A stretch of 39,951 nt of DNA from Arenicellales bacterium (GTDB taxonomy: Bacteria; Pseudomonadota; Gammaproteobacteria; BMS3Bbin11). The position numbers were made by a program, and so were the translations under genes. Below the pieces are notes generated by a model. The model was not told where the DNA came from, did no database searches, and saw nothing but the letters and a program-made list of their open reading frames with translations. Positions 15,858 through 36,199 of the stretch are shown piece by piece. The stretch is taken from contig JARFQI010000072.1 of NCBI GenBank assembly GCA_029287855.1, forward strand, positions 1 through 39,951. Reading direction: 5' to 3'. Position 1 is the first letter of the stretch. Every line of letters starts with the position of its first letter.

Positions 15858-18275
<2,418 letters not shown>

Positions 18276-18464
18276 CTAAAACCCGTAGATGACTAATCAT
18301 AAAATTCTAACATTATCAGCCAGTAATATCAGGAATATAACTACGATATGTCGTTAATAACGATATCTATTGATTTTAATTTCCACAAAGCCAAACTGGA
18401 AAATATTTTATGGAGTCTGGTTTATGCTGCTATTGTGTTTCTGCGAGGTCGTATTTGGGGAACT

Positions 18465-18505
18465 ACATCATTATGTTGATTCAGGGTAAACCAACATAAT
18501 GATGT
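18465..18505. repeat. Perfect 14-bp stem inverted repeat in the dnaN-gyrB gap
   Basis: ACATCATTATGTTG(18465-18478)/CAACATAATGATGT(18492-18505), 13-nt loop. No following T-tract on the minus strand. Confidence 0.7.
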
Positions 18506-18546
18506 TTAAAAAAGCAGAGCAGATTTTACAGGGATAATTATTATTC

Positions 18547-18566
18547 TATGTTTCACGTGAAACATA
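18547..18566. promoter_or_regulatory. parS: parS-type ParB-binding site
   Basis: Perfect 20-bp palindrome TATGTTTCACGTGAAACATA containing TGTTTCACGTGAAACA (18549-18564), which matches the chromosomal parS consensus. Confidence 0.9.
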
Positions 18567-18570
18567 TTAT

Positions 18571-19680
18571 TTACAGCCGCATCGGCATTACAATATACAC
18601 AGTTTCCGCATCACCTGGTGCACGTAGCGTTCCGCTGCTGTTAGCGTCGCTTAAAAGTATCTCTACTTTTTCTGAATGTATTACATTCAGAGCTTCAAGC
18701 ATGTAGCCGACGTTAAAACCGATTTCTATATCCTCACCAGTGTATTCTATCTTGATTTCATCAAAGGCTTCTTCCTGGTCAGGGTTATTAGCAGAAACGC
18801 TCATTTTATCTTTAGAGATAATAAGCCTTACACCGCGGAATTTTTCATTAGTGAGTATTGCTGCCCTATTAAGTGTATTTTGTAATTCATGCCTGTCTAT
18901 CAAGACAGATTTGTCCTGATTTTTTGGTATGACTTTTTCATAGTCAGGGAATCGACCATCAATTAATTTTGATGTAAAAATAACAGAGTCCAATTCAACA
19001 CGCATATGATTTGCATTGAAACTGACACTGATTTCATCCTCTATGTCATCCATCATGCGATTAAGTTCGGTTATTGCTTTTCTCGGAACAATAGCCTGGA
19101 TATCTGAATCAGTTGATTTTGAAGATAGTTGAATTTCAGTTTTTGCCAGTCGATGTCCATCAGTAGCTACTGTTGTCATGTTTTCACTATCAGAGACGAG
19201 TAACAGCCCATTCAGGTAGAAGCGCACATCTTGTTGTGCCATTGCAAACGATGTTCTCGTTAAAGCCTGCTTGAATGTACTGGCAGGTAGTTTCCAGGTT
19301 TGATTCCACTGTTCGGTTTCAATTTTTGGAAAATCGTCGACCGGCAATGTTTGTACAGTAAATCGGCTTTTACCGGATCTTATTATTGATTTTCCGTTAT
19401 CTCCAGATGTAATCGATATTTCAGCATCATCCGGTAATGAACGGGTGATGTCATAAAGCTTTCTGGCATTAATTGTTAATTCACCAGTTTCACCCGTCAC
19501 CTGATCACAATAGGTAATCACTTCAACCTCTAGATCTGTACCAGTAAGTGACAGTCTATTTTTTCCATCAAATTGAATTAATACATTTGAAAGTATCGGT
19601 AGCGTTTGACGCTTCTCAACAACACTGCTTACATACGTAAGTGGTTTGAGTAATGCTCCTTTGGATAACTTAATGTTCAT
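18571..19680 (-). CDS. dnaN: DNA polymerase III subunit beta (sliding clamp)
   Basis: MNIKLSKGALLKPLTYVSSVVEKRQTLPILSNVLIQ... C-terminal YIVMPMRL. Confidence 0.97.
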   Translation of the reverse strand: MNIKLSKGALLKPLTYVSSVVEKRQTLPILSNVLIQFDGKNRLSLTGTDLEVEVITYCDQVTGETGELTINARKLYDITRSLPDDAEISITSGDNGKSIIRSGKSRFTVQTLPVDDFPKIETEQWNQTWKLPASTFKQALTRTSFAMAQQDVRFYLNGLLLVSDSENMTTVATDGHRLAKTEIQLSSKSTDSDIQAIVPRKAITELNRMMDDIEDEISVSFNANHMRVELDSVIFTSKLIDGRFPDYEKVIPKNQDKSVLIDRHELQNTLNRAAILTNEKFRGVRLIISKDKMSVSANNPDQEEAFDEIKIEYTGEDIEIGFNVGYMLEALNVIHSEKVEILLSDANSSGTLRAPGDAETVYIVMPMRL

Positions 19681-19888
19681 AGTATTACCTTATTTTTATA
19701 TATCTTACTTCTATTGCTATTAGCACATATTGATGCTGTGTAAAACTGAAATTAACTCTTATTAATCATTATGTTATGAAATATATATGCCTGTTAATAA
19801 ATACTGTTTAGAGTAAGAATACTTTGTGAATTAATGTGTGTAAGTCAGTAAGCATAAGCAAAAATAGAGTTTATCCCCAATTTATTCA

Positions 19889-21244
19889 TTAGTTACTTAG
19901 TATTTTCAACAGGTTTTCATAGTCTTCATTCAACTGAGGATTTTCACTAGTTAACTGAGAGACTTTTTTTACTGCATGAATGACTGTTGTGTGGTCTCTT
20001 CCACCAAAGGCATCACCAATCTCTGGTAATGAATGATTCGTTAATTCTTTAGATAATGCCATCGCAATCTGTCTGGGCCTGGTTATATTTCTTGTGCGCT
20101 TTTTTGATCTGATGTCTGAAACGCGGATTTTAAAATATTCAGCAACGGTTTTCTGAATATTTTCCAGACTTATCATCCGCTGCTGGAAACCGACAATATC
20201 CTTCAGTGCTTCTTTGGCTAGATCCAGGTCAATTTCTCTACCAGTAAACCGCATGCTGGCGACGATACGATTTAAACCGCCCTCAAGTTCACGTACATTG
20301 GAACGAATCTGTCTTGAGATAAAAAATGCCACTTCCTGTGGAAGATTGATCCCCATTTCAGTTGCCTTGGTGATAAGGATTGCAACCCTGGTTTCGAGTT
20401 CTGGAGGCTCAATGGGTACAGTCAGGCCTGAGCCAAATCGAGACACGAGCCTTTCTTCGAGTCCTTCAATTTCCTGAGGCATTCTATCACTCGTCATTAT
20501 TATCTGACGGTTGAGATCCAGCAGAGAATTAAATGTATGAAAAAACTCTTCCTGTGATTGATTTTTTCGTGCAAAGAAATGTATATCATCAATTAACAAT
20601 GCATCGACTGATCGATAGTGAAGCTTGAAATCATCAATGGTTCCATGTTGAAGTGCTTTAACAAAACCTTGAACAAAAAACTCAGAGCGTACATAGGCAA
20701 TAGTTGCCGTAGGCTGCTGTTGAAGAATGAGGTTCCCTGCAGATTGCATCAGATGGGTTTTTCCTACACCTGAACCGCCATAGATGAATAGAGGGTTGTA
20801 ACTCTGGCCTGGATTCTCACCGACCTGAAGTGCGGCTGCACGTGCCAGCTGATTTGATTTACCAGCAACATGGCTGTGAAATGTAAATTTTGGGTTTAAT
20901 ACAGTAGAAAATTCCTGACGAATTTTCTTCTTTCGAGCTTTCTGAGCGACTTTCTTATTAGAGGTTTTTTTGTCGGTTGCCTGTTCTGAGCGATCAGCAG
21001 TAGTGCTGCCAATTTTAAGGATTACTTCAAGATTACCCTTGCCAATTGAACCTGCTATTTCAGTAATTCGTTTTAAGTAATGTGAATCCACCCAGTCTTT
21101 AACAAAGCGGTTTGGCGCTAGAAGATATAATTTATTATGGTTTTTTTCAGCCTGCAAAGGACGGATCCAGGTATTAAAATGATTACTGGATAACTCTCCT
21201 TCCAAATGGAGAAGGCAGTCATTCCAAAAGGTTTTTCTAGGCAA
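19889..21244 (-). CDS. dnaA: Chromosomal replication initiator protein DnaA
   Basis: YNPLFIYGGSGVGKTHLMQSAGN, LLIDDIHFFARK, C-terminal FGGRDHTTVIHAVKKV. Confidence 0.98.
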   Translation of the reverse strand: MPRKTFWNDCLLHLEGELSSNHFNTWIRPLQAEKNHNKLYLLAPNRFVKDWVDSHYLKRITEIAGSIGKGNLEVILKIGSTTADRSEQATDKKTSNKKVAQKARKKKIRQEFSTVLNPKFTFHSHVAGKSNQLARAAALQVGENPGQSYNPLFIYGGSGVGKTHLMQSAGNLILQQQPTATIAYVRSEFFVQGFVKALQHGTIDDFKLHYRSVDALLIDDIHFFARKNQSQEEFFHTFNSLLDLNRQIIMTSDRMPQEIEGLEERLVSRFGSGLTVPIEPPELETRVAILITKATEMGINLPQEVAFFISRQIRSNVRELEGGLNRIVASMRFTGREIDLDLAKEALKDIVGFQQRMISLENIQKTVAEYFKIRVSDIRSKKRTRNITRPRQIAMALSKELTNHSLPEIGDAFGGRDHTTVIHAVKKVSQLTSENPQLNEDYENLLKILSN

Positions 21245-21430
21245 AATAAATCCCTGAATTTTATGATATAATTAAGCGTTTAATTATATAATTATTATCT
21301 TTTATAGCATTACTACTGGTAGTAATTTATATATTGTTGAACTCGTTAGTTTAACTAATAGGTTTGGAGTTATCCACAGGCAATGTTGGTAATAGCATGA
21401 TATTTTTAAATTTAAATAAAGCAATTTGCT
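21245..21430. other. oriC: Putative oriC (dnaA-rpmH intergenic)
   Basis: AT-rich; perfect DnaA box TTATCCACA at 21370-21378; inverted repeats at 21266-21289 and 21309-21326; sits at the dnaA/rpmH divergence point. Confidence 0.6.
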
Positions 21431-21431
21431 G

Positions 21432-21460
21432 TTGACATAGAAGCCAACAAAAAGTACATT
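21432..21460 (+). promoter_or_regulatory. Sigma70-type promoter upstream of rpmH
   Basis: TTGACA(21432-21437)-N17-TACATT(21455-21460). Confidence 0.65.
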
Positions 21461-21548
21461 TTCCGCCCTTTTACATCTTGACCGTAATTCCTTGATGGCT
21501 ATGGCCTGAATCAGGTTTTCGGCCTAGCTAAATTCGAAGACAGATATT

Positions 21549-21683
21549 ATGAAAAGAACATTTCAACCTAGCGTATTAAAGCGTAAACGTCGCCACGGTT
21601 TTCGTGCAAGAATGAAAACCCGCAGTGGACGCGCAATCATAAATGCTCGTCGTGCCAGGGGTCGTGCTTCACTCAGCGCCTGA
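21549..21683 (+). CDS. rpmH: 50S ribosomal protein L34
   Basis: Translated by hand: [44 protein letters not shown]. Absent from the ORF track because it is shorter than 60 aa. Confidence 0.97.
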
Positions 21684-21697
21684 TAAACTATGCCTTC

Positions 21698-22045
21698 GTG
21701 TCAGAGGCTTTTGACAAATCCTGTAGGCTGCTCGAAAAGGCAGATTTTTCACACGTCTTCTCTACTGGCAAACGGGATAATGGAAAATTTTTCCTTGTTG
21801 TATTCTGTGTAAATAAACCAGGATCTGCAAGACTGGGTATTGCAGTGTCTCGTAAAGTTTCAAAAAGAGCAGTAATAAGGAACCGGATTAAGAGACAAAT
21901 CAGAGAATCATTCAGGTTAAATAAAAAACTTCTTATGGGTATGGATTGTGTTGTCGTTGCAAAACAAGCTGCAGCCGTATCCGAAAAACCTGTTCTTCGC
22001 ACATCACTCGATACACACTGGCGGAAAATTTCAGAAAATGCGTAA
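21698..22045 (+). CDS. rnpA: Ribonuclease P protein component
   Basis: RLGIAVSRKVSKRAVIRNRIKRQIRESFR signature; GTG start. Confidence 0.94.
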   Translation: MSEAFDKSCRLLEKADFSHVFSTGKRDNGKFFLVVFCVNKPGSARLGIAVSRKVSKRAVIRNRIKRQIRESFRLNKKLLMGMDCVVVAKQAAAVSEKPVLRTSLDTHWRKISENA

Positions 22046-22274
22046 GTTTGCCGTTAGCATGCTGAAATTCTATAAGCGCTGGGTTAGCCCTTTATTTGGC
22101 CAACACTGTCGTTTCTATCCCACATGTTCCGAATACGCGGCAACAGCAATTACCGAACATGGTGTTATCAGAGGCGGCTGGATGTCGATTTACCGAATAA
22201 TACGTTGCAATCCGTGGAACGAGGGCGGCATTGATTATGTGCCCTGTAATCACAAGGAACACTTAGATGGATAA
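22038..22274 (+). CDS. yidD: Membrane protein insertion efficiency factor YidD
   Basis: FYKRWVSPLFGQHCRFYPTCSEYAATAI...RIIRCNPWNEGGIDYVP. Start set at MRKFAVSMLKF; overlaps both rnpA and yidC. Confidence 0.94.
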   Translation: MRKFAVSMLKFYKRWVSPLFGQHCRFYPTCSEYAATAITEHGVIRGGWMSIYRIIRCNPWNEGGIDYVPCNHKEHLDG

Positions 22275-23928
22275 TCAGAGATTGATACTTTTTGTTGTAC
22301 TGGGATTCCTGTTCCTTATGCTTTGGCAATCTTGGGTAGAATACAGCTCGCCTGAGCAACCAGTTGTAGAATCAACACGCGACAATGCAAGTCCAGAGAC
22401 TGCAGAAACTGCAAGTATTCCAGAAACACCTGCAATTAGCTCTGATACACCAGGCATGGCACAGGATTCTGCAACACTGTCAGCCAATAGAGGCCCGACA
22501 GGCGAAACGGTGTTCGTTGAAACAGACACCTATAAAGTTGAGCTCAATACCGTTGGCGCAGGTATCAATAAAATCTGGCTAAAGAAATATACCGTCGACA
22601 TTGATCATCCAGATGATTTGCTGCAATTAATGAATGATTCTGGCGAAGATATATTTACGGCGCAAGGCGGTTTGCTGGTACAGGGACGAGAATTTCCAAC
22701 ACATAAAACGCAGTTCACCAGTACAAATAAAAAATACAGCATGCCTGAGGGCAAAGACACACTGGACGTCGAATTTGTATGGAATTCACCTGATGGTATA
22801 ACTTATAAGAAAATCTATACATTCTCTCGTAATAGTTACATTATCGATATTAAATACAAAGTCTTTAATACAAGTTCTAAAGAGTGGGTTGGCTATCAAT
22901 ATAACCAGTTCAAGAGAACTCAGGTAGATGCGCAGAATTCATTCAATCCAGCAACCATGGTTCCAAGCTATACAGGCGGAGCAATCTATGATGAGCAGGA
23001 TAAATATAGAAAAATAAGCTTTTCAGATATGCAGGATGAAAACTTCTCTATTCTAACAACGAATGGCTGGGTTGGTATGTTGCAGCACTATTTTGTTGGC
23101 TCATGGCTGCTAGAAAAAAACAGCAAATATGAAATCTTTTCAAATAAGTTACCTGGCAACAATTTCTTCCTGGGCTATAAATCGCTAGCACCGGTAGTTA
23201 TTCAAGCTGGAAATGCTGGTGAACTTTCTTCTAGATTATTTGTTGGTCCGAAAGAGACAAAGAGACTGGAAGCAGCAGCTCCAGGGCTAGAATTAACAGT
23301 AGACTTTGGCTGGTTGACGCCTATTTCATCGCCCCTTTACTGGTTACTCGATAAGATTCATTCATTTGTAGGAAACTGGGGTTGGGCAATAATTATACTG
23401 ACCATACTGATTAAGCTTGCCTTTTTCCCTCTTTCTGCAGCAAGCCATAAATCAATGGCTAATATGAGAAAAATGACGCCAAGGATAAAGACCCTGAAGG
23501 AGCGTTATGGAGATGACAAGCAGAAGTTAAATCAGGCGATGATGAAGTTATACAAGGAGGAGAAAATTAATCCTCTTGGTGGCTGTCTGCCAATACTAAT
23601 TCAAATACCTGTATTTATCGCTCTCTACTGGGCATTACTGGAGAGTGTAGAACTACGCCAGGCACCCTGGATATTATGGATTAAAGATCTTTCAGCGCCT
23701 GACCCCTATTTTATATTGCCTATATTAATGGGCGTCTCAATGCTTGCTCAGCAATCCCTCAGTGCTGTTGCGATGGATCCTATGCAAAAGAGGATAATGA
23801 TGGCGATGCCGGTGGTATTTACTTTCTTCTTCCTGTTCTTCCCTTCTGGTCTGGTATTGTACTGGACTGTTAATAATCTGCTGACTATAGCCCAGCAATA
23901 CACAATTAATAAGAAGATGGGCGTATAA
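22267..23928 (+). CDS. yidC: Membrane protein insertase YidC
   Basis: N-terminal TM, periplasmic domain, NWGWAIIILTILIKLAFFPLS...KEEKINPLGGCLPILIQIPVFIALYWALLESVELR. Confidence 0.97.
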   Translation: MDNQRLILFVVLGFLFLMLWQSWVEYSSPEQPVVESTRDNASPETAETASIPETPAISSDTPGMAQDSATLSANRGPTGETVFVETDTYKVELNTVGAGINKIWLKKYTVDIDHPDDLLQLMNDSGEDIFTAQGGLLVQGREFPTHKTQFTSTNKKYSMPEGKDTLDVEFVWNSPDGITYKKIYTFSRNSYIIDIKYKVFNTSSKEWVGYQYNQFKRTQVDAQNSFNPATMVPSYTGGAIYDEQDKYRKISFSDMQDENFSILTTNGWVGMLQHYFVGSWLLEKNSKYEIFSNKLPGNNFFLGYKSLAPVVIQAGNAGELSSRLFVGPKETKRLEAAAPGLELTVDFGWLTPISSPLYWLLDKIHSFVGNWGWAIIILTILIKLAFFPLSAASHKSMANMRKMTPRIKTLKERYGDDKQKLNQAMMKLYKEEKINPLGGCLPILIQIPVFIALYWALLESVELRQAPWILWIKDLSAPDPYFILPILMGVSMLAQQSLSAVAMDPMQKRIMMAMPVVFTFFFLFFPSGLVLYWTVNNLLTIAQQYTINKKMGV

Positions 23929-35638: not shown

Positions 35639-36199
35639 TCAGTGTTTCAGCAGTACCGCACTGGCGTCATCTTCAAACATATCTGGCAATTCATGGGCGA
35701 CACCTTTGTGGCAATCAATGCAGGTTTCACCGTTGGCAAAGCCCTTAACATGGTTGTCTACAGCGCGGCGGCCCTGTGATGGATAATCCATGTCGTCATA
35801 GTTGTGGCAGTTGCGACACTCACGCGAATCATTCTCCTTCATGCGGACCCACTCATGACGCGCCAGTTCGAGGCGCTTGGCTTCGAATTTTTCACGTGTA
35901 TCAATGGTACCCAGCGCCTTGTGATAAAGTTCATTAGAGGCCTGGATTTTACGCCTGATCTTGTAAATCCACTCCCTTGGTACATGGCAATCCGGGCATG
36001 TTGCACGGACCCCCGTCCGGTTTGCATAGTGAATAGTATCCTTGTATTCAACATAGACGTTATCGCGCATTTCGTGGCAGGAAATACAAAATTGTTCTGT
36101 ATTGGTTAATTCCAGGGTCCAGTTAAAAGCACCCCAGAATATGACGCCGATGATAAAACCAATGATCAGCACCGAAAGTGAAATTTTCTTTTTAGACAT
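35639..36199 (-). CDS. napC: Cytochrome c-type protein NapC (tetraheme quinol dehydrogenase)
   Basis: N-terminal TM and four CxxCH motifs (CISCH, CPDCH, CRNCH, CIDCH). Confidence 0.93.

Follow-up and report, generated by a model that had tools for sequence, protein, structure and literature searches.

Organisation of the dnaN–gyrB region

The window, by which we mean the whole 39,951-nucleotide stretch of Arenicellales bacterium DNA analysed here, contains the replication genes in the order dnaA–dnaN–gyrB (Table 1). It has no recF between dnaN and gyrB, a point absent from the initial annotation, and gyrB is therefore the next gene downstream of dnaN. The organism is an uncultured gammaproteobacterium, and its closest named relative is JARFQE01 (Arenicellales bacterium), with 89% DnaN identity. 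The cumulative GC-skew minimum falls at position 20504 and, together with the one perfect DnaA box in the dnaA–rpmH gap, indicates a likely oriC about 2–2.8 kb from the palindrome that follows dnaN. This agrees with the distance of about 2.7 kb from a putative oriC given in the initial annotation.

Table 1. Positions of genes and DNA features around the dnaN–gyrB junction of the window
Feature	Position	Strand	Evidence or remark
gyrB	15858..18269	-	Pfam; NF011501, 1275.8 bits
dnaN–gyrB spacer	18270..18570	.	recF's place in most Gammaproteobacteria; no detectable RecF coding remnant
Strong, near-perfect hairpin CATCATTATGTTG...CAACATAATGATG	18466..18504	.	in the slot vacated by recF; -22.3 kcal/mol, z -7.2
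parS, perfect 20-bp palindrome TATGTTTCACGTGAAACATA	18547..18566	.	16-bp core at 18549-18564
dnaN, DNA polymerase III beta clamp	18571..19680	-	Pfam; TIGR00663, 357.9 bits against a cut-off of 137.65
dnaA	19889..21244	-	ORF called from a TTG start; Pfam; TIGR00362
Perfect DnaA box TTATCCACA	21370..21378	+	dnaA–rpmH gap; part of probable oriC

The spacer also contains a strong hairpin, which occurs once in the window, has no terminator tail and is absent from Rfam; an Rfam search over positions 18200–22300 gave no match. It was rejected as an intrinsic terminator by the terminator scan, and is probably separate from parS.

A single perfect parS site next to the origin

Scanning of the window placed the core of the 20-bp palindrome, TGTTTCACGTGAAACA, between dnaN and gyrB and near the origin. 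This 16-bp palindrome matches the chromosomal parS pattern TGTTNCACGTGNAACA with 0 mismatches, and is identical to the chromosomal consensus TGTTNCACGTGAAACA (PMC7022226). The initial annotation had reported a perfect 20-bp palindrome with a parS core after dnaN, and this is what the scan found. It had also put the start 6 bp past the dnaN stop codon, which occupies 18571–18573 on the minus strand; that distance is right for the 16-bp core, whereas the 20-bp palindrome begins 4 bp from the stop. The outer TA/TA pairs of the palindrome vary among relatives, so the meaningful part is the core of 16–18 bp only.

As the initial annotation had stated, there is no second full site in the window, the next best match (at 35888) having 3 mismatches, a chance level. 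A degenerate second copy was also sought in the dnaN–gyrB gap, where the best match had 5 mismatches, similar to other stretches of the gap. The perfect match to TGTTNCACGTGNAACA is unique in the assembled genome (203 contigs, 2,329,436 bases), so that the genome-wide search proposed with the initial annotation yielded one perfect site adjoining the origin, and no scatter. The assembly of 2.33 Mb is 91% complete, and further parS sites could sit in the absent DNA.

The second-best match in the genome, TGTTTCACGTGCACCA, has one mismatch to the degenerate pattern TGTTNCACGTGNAACA; it lies inside ligA (G000:C165:9268-9283, L013), about 2 kb downstream of smc. It was rejected as a second parS, since it is within a coding gene and differs from TGTTTCACGTGAAACA at two positions, and it is probably a chance match.

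The palindrome immediately follows a stop codon, a position typical of terminators, and could in principle be a dnaN terminator, the site of another regulator or a chance match, and no centromere. We consider this highly improbable. About 0.0008–0.0009 copies of the exact 16-mer are expected by chance in 2.33 Mb, that is some 0.001 perfect sites in the genome. The terminator scan found no terminator-like site here, and a palindrome without a loop makes a poor terminator. Moreover the same sequence is kept, together with ParB, in congeners and in the same slot across the class, as described below.

Partner proteins

The window contains neither parA nor parB, in line with the initial annotation; both are on another contig (C185), which is not joined to the window contig in the assembly. 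A search for them elsewhere in the genome had been proposed, and it revealed a chromosomal-type parB in the gene order mnmG–rsmG–parA–parB–atp, the flanking genes being named from their translations. This arrangement flanks oriC in many bacteria. No second parS with two or fewer mismatches was found in contig C185 at this parAB locus.

The ParB protein is 286 amino acids long and aligns with Caulobacter ParB (6T1F) with an E value of 1.5e-55. In this alignment it keeps the Arg and Gly equivalent to R173 and G201, which are reported to be absolutely conserved in ParBs (PMC7383237). Three of the eight reported parS-contacting residues differ (equivalents of Q162H, G170S and K171R), as read from the 6T1F alignment with an inferred numbering offset. 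At the positions of the Noc recognition residues Q173, K179, K184 and R201 (PMC7383237) this ParB has R, L, S and G instead, and it scores 213 with the NCBIfam Noc model, under the cut-off of 315. The palindrome was therefore rejected as a nucleoid occlusion site (NBS) for Noc.

SMC is also encoded in the genome, and all the pieces of a ParABS–SMC system are thus present. In such systems ParB, once loaded at parS, spreads from there in the form of a sliding clamp that depends on CTP; the resulting complex is moved by ParA, and SMC is loaded by ParB. By analogy, the cognate ParB probably binds the window's parS, which would then act in chromosome segregation. ParB dimers would load at parS and slide outward over dnaN, gyrB and dnaA, ParA would separate the ParB–parS complexes directly after the origin is copied, and ParB would load SMC at parS. 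Two outcomes had been named beforehand as speaking against a centromere, namely a genome with no parB and parS sites scattered through it, and neither was observed. With ParA, ParB and SMC encoded on other contigs and a single perfect site by the origin, the proposal that the palindrome is the chromosome's origin-proximal centromere is well supported.

parS positions in recF-bearing relatives

In recF-bearing Gammaproteobacteria parS recurs at two positions, inside recF at about nucleotide 380–415, and in the recF–gyrB gap at a median distance of 54 bp upstream of gyrB. Among the 72 loci that have recF and gyrB, and with one mismatch allowed, 61 had both sites, 8 the internal site only, 2 the gap site only, and 1 neither. 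The window departs from this pair of sites about 600–670 bp apart, since recF is absent and there is one site.

The recF-internal parS encodes F-H-V-E/K. Its His codon is CAC in 71 of the 72 recF genes, against 45% of the remaining His codons of these genes, and its Val codon is GTG in 70 of 72, against 31% elsewhere. For Glu, GAA was found 60 times and GAG once at the internal site, compared with 613 and 692 times respectively elsewhere in these genes. The counts cover all 72 genes irrespective of the state of parS and, the genes being related, are not counts of independent events. The codon bias indicates that the DNA word is kept, and not the peptide alone. In E. coli, which lacks chromosomal ParABS, RecF reads WGCFHNEP at this position and the parS core is broken. 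In a Chromatiales metagenome-assembled genome (JAFIFS01, L197) the recF–gyrB gap is unusually long and holds four parS-like sites; with the one in recF, these make up an expanded centromere cluster.

In Pseudomonas aeruginosa, parS1 and parS2 have been described within recF (PMC5521831, PMC3909081). These share with the window's parS the consensus, the dnaA–dnaN–recF–gyrB neighbourhood and the proximity to the origin (PMC5521831, PMC3909081, PMC4368675). The two differ in that P. aeruginosa has the sites within recF plus eight more in the genome, whereas the window's genome has no recF and shows one perfect site. In P. aeruginosa one high-affinity parS of the oriC-proximal cluster is enough for segregation (PMC4368675), so that a single site should in principle do here as well. 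The chromosomal parS sites of other bacteria (PMC7022226) likewise have the same 16-bp core and a ParB-family partner, but differ in number and gene context from the single dnaN–gyrB site of the window.

Absence of recF from the genome and family

Neither this genome nor the 7 others of its family (8 in total), some of the 7 being only 60–81% complete, gave a RecF match above the family cut-off. RecR was found in all 8 genomes and RecO in 5 of 8; RecO was not detected in the present assembly, possibly because of an assembly gap. The family (f1, G000–G007; the window's genome is G000), with genomes of 2–3 Mb, thus has a RecOR pathway that lacks RecF. A remnant of RecF in the emptied gap was sought with the RecF profile in six frames in the gaps of G000–G005 and G007; the best match, with an E value of 0.04, was unconvincing and was rejected. 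The absence of recF from the slot explains why parS lies directly between dnaN and gyrB.

Perfect parS sites were present in all three congeners with a complete dnaN–gyrB junction, and incomplete contigs of two further congeners are consistent with this, so the site is kept at the same place in related genomes. Two gap sites were found in G003 and G004, one directly after dnaN and one before gyrB, again without recF; the two-site gap of G003 was read across two contigs overlapping at the dnaN-side site. The window's genome and G002 have the dnaN-side site only, and G001 has the gyrB-side site only. In G005, whose contig stops short of dnaN, a gyrB-side site was seen. G000 and G001, which are sister species, have therefore kept different copies. 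The simplest history for the family would be two ancestral sites followed by loss of either one, and never of both. The dnaN–gyrB gaps of G003 (L081, 1-976) and G004 (L083, 5343-6207) are about 0.9 kb long, and between the two parS sites contain repeat-like, G+C-rich non-coding DNA resembling mobile or repeat elements in the emptied recF slot.

Fate of parS after loss of recF across the class

Among 370 genomes of the class that are at least 90% complete, 73 gave no RecF match, and the regions downstream of dnaN were retrieved for nearly all recF-less genomes in which dnaN was found. In all, 39 recF-less dnaN–gyrB junctions were compared, including the window and three congeners. At least one parS with no more than one mismatch was present in the short gap of 30 of the 39 junctions, at one or two sites each. 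In the recF-less loci, the gaps, 7,005 bp in total, held 44 sites, and the 288,126 bp outside them held 0. The median spacing of paired sites was 621 bp (603–672) with recF, against 38 bp (25–722) without it. A site was kept at 16 of 16 junctions in the window's clade, which spans several families, at 4 of 4 in a second clade, at 9 of 10 in a third, and in the lone G077.

The nine junctions without a gap site fall into several kinds. No ParB match was found in three of them, G025 and G161 (genomes of 0.3–0.4 Mb) and G360. In G102, G208 and G293 perfect parS sites lie near parB instead of in the gap. G247, the sole miss of the third clade, has two sites with two mismatches. The remaining two, G103 (L272, L276) and G209 (L273, L279) of family f96, encode ParB, but nothing resembling parS was found near dnaN or parB in the stretches examined; the site of their ParB may have altered or shifted.

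A tree of dnaN and gyrB from 129 loci requires seven changes of recF state, and branches with strong support force four of these. When the tree was reduced, each of the three main recF-less clades was well supported and separate, and a single recF loss for the three is disfavoured, though not formally rejected (AU test with the clades held together, p = 0.064). In genus g99, recF is present in G104 and absent from G360, which indicates a separate loss within that genus.

Sites might instead have arisen anew in the dnaN–gyrB gap after recF was lost, any spot near the origin being tolerated. This would account for the lack of any surviving RecF-coding flank around the sites, and relocation does occur, as the sites near parB in the recF-less G102, G208 and G293 demonstrate. 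The distribution of 44 sites in 7.0 kb of gap and 0 in 288 kb would nevertheless need sites to have arisen repeatedly in the same short gap, and the recF–gyrB gap copy is already present in recF-bearing relatives, so that retention requires no new event. Origin of the sites de novo is therefore unlikely.

Discussion

From the comparison of sequences we are confident that the palindrome is the parS of a ParABS–SMC system and one of an ancestral recF pair, in a lineage that lost recF and kept the dnaN-side copy. The ancestral pair would have comprised one site inside recF and one in the recF–gyrB gap; an ancestor of the lineage would have lost recF while retaining parS in the remaining gap, and the present species would have only the dnaN-side copy left. 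A 16-bp palindrome alone cannot prove descent from the recF-internal copy, and parS has no flanking remnant of RecF coding sequence. Which ancestral copy the window's parS is, and whether its position is under selection, are matters that we infer from these patterns.

The window's parS itself is an ordinary, textbook parS in an unusual setting. Added to this is the finding that the parS address survives the loss of recF. No published account of parS outliving recF was found in the literature searched, the main survey (Livny et al. 2007) being outside its coverage.

The retention of parS in recF's place suggests that the position itself matters. The dnaN–gyrB slot may be a selected centromere address, at which the parS pair is maintained independently of recF because ParB and SMC loading there is beneficial; we regard this as possible but put it a little short of an even chance. 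On this reading parS would constrain the RecF peptide FHVE for as long as recF exists, and would persist after repeated loss of recF. The benefit could be timing, with parS directly behind the replication fork, or an action of ParB on the replication–gyrase operon.

A plainer explanation, to which we give even odds and which is about as likely as one in which position matters, is that parS is required at some point close to oriC and seldom relocates, with no selection on its exact position. The recF-less genomes belong to few clades, and the value of p = 0.064 for a single loss in the three main clades is compatible with this, as is the finding that any one of the four oriC-proximal sites of P. 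aeruginosa suffices (PMC4368675). It fits less well with the turnover of the sequence around sites that are still perfect, with the different single copies kept by the sisters G000 and G001, and with the frequent retention of two sites although one should suffice.

Also to be set against the plainer explanation is a preference seen in Caulobacter, where extra parS insertions in a Tn-seq experiment were enriched at the same two genes, recF–gyrB, by a mechanism stated as unknown (PMC5815017). That hot spot is artificial and in an alphaproteobacterium, with the genes at map positions +158 to +175 kb, whereas the window's site is native. Caulobacter recF–gyrB is far from the native parS; if the two phenomena are linked, the gene neighbourhood and not the distance to oriC would be the cause. 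Such a link is speculation, and the insertion preference and the slot pattern are possibly unrelated.

Whether or not position is selected, a 16-bp centromere has kept its place between dnaN and gyrB across many families of Gammaproteobacteria, its host gene surviving or not. The position of the centromere would thus be separable from the repair gene, and the recF-less lineages offer a natural experiment on why parS sits there. The pattern of retention may bear on the unexplained parS enrichment at recF–gyrB in Caulobacter (PMC5815017). Finally, the conserved RecF peptide FHVE, which could otherwise be read as a feature of the protein, gains a reason at the level of DNA.
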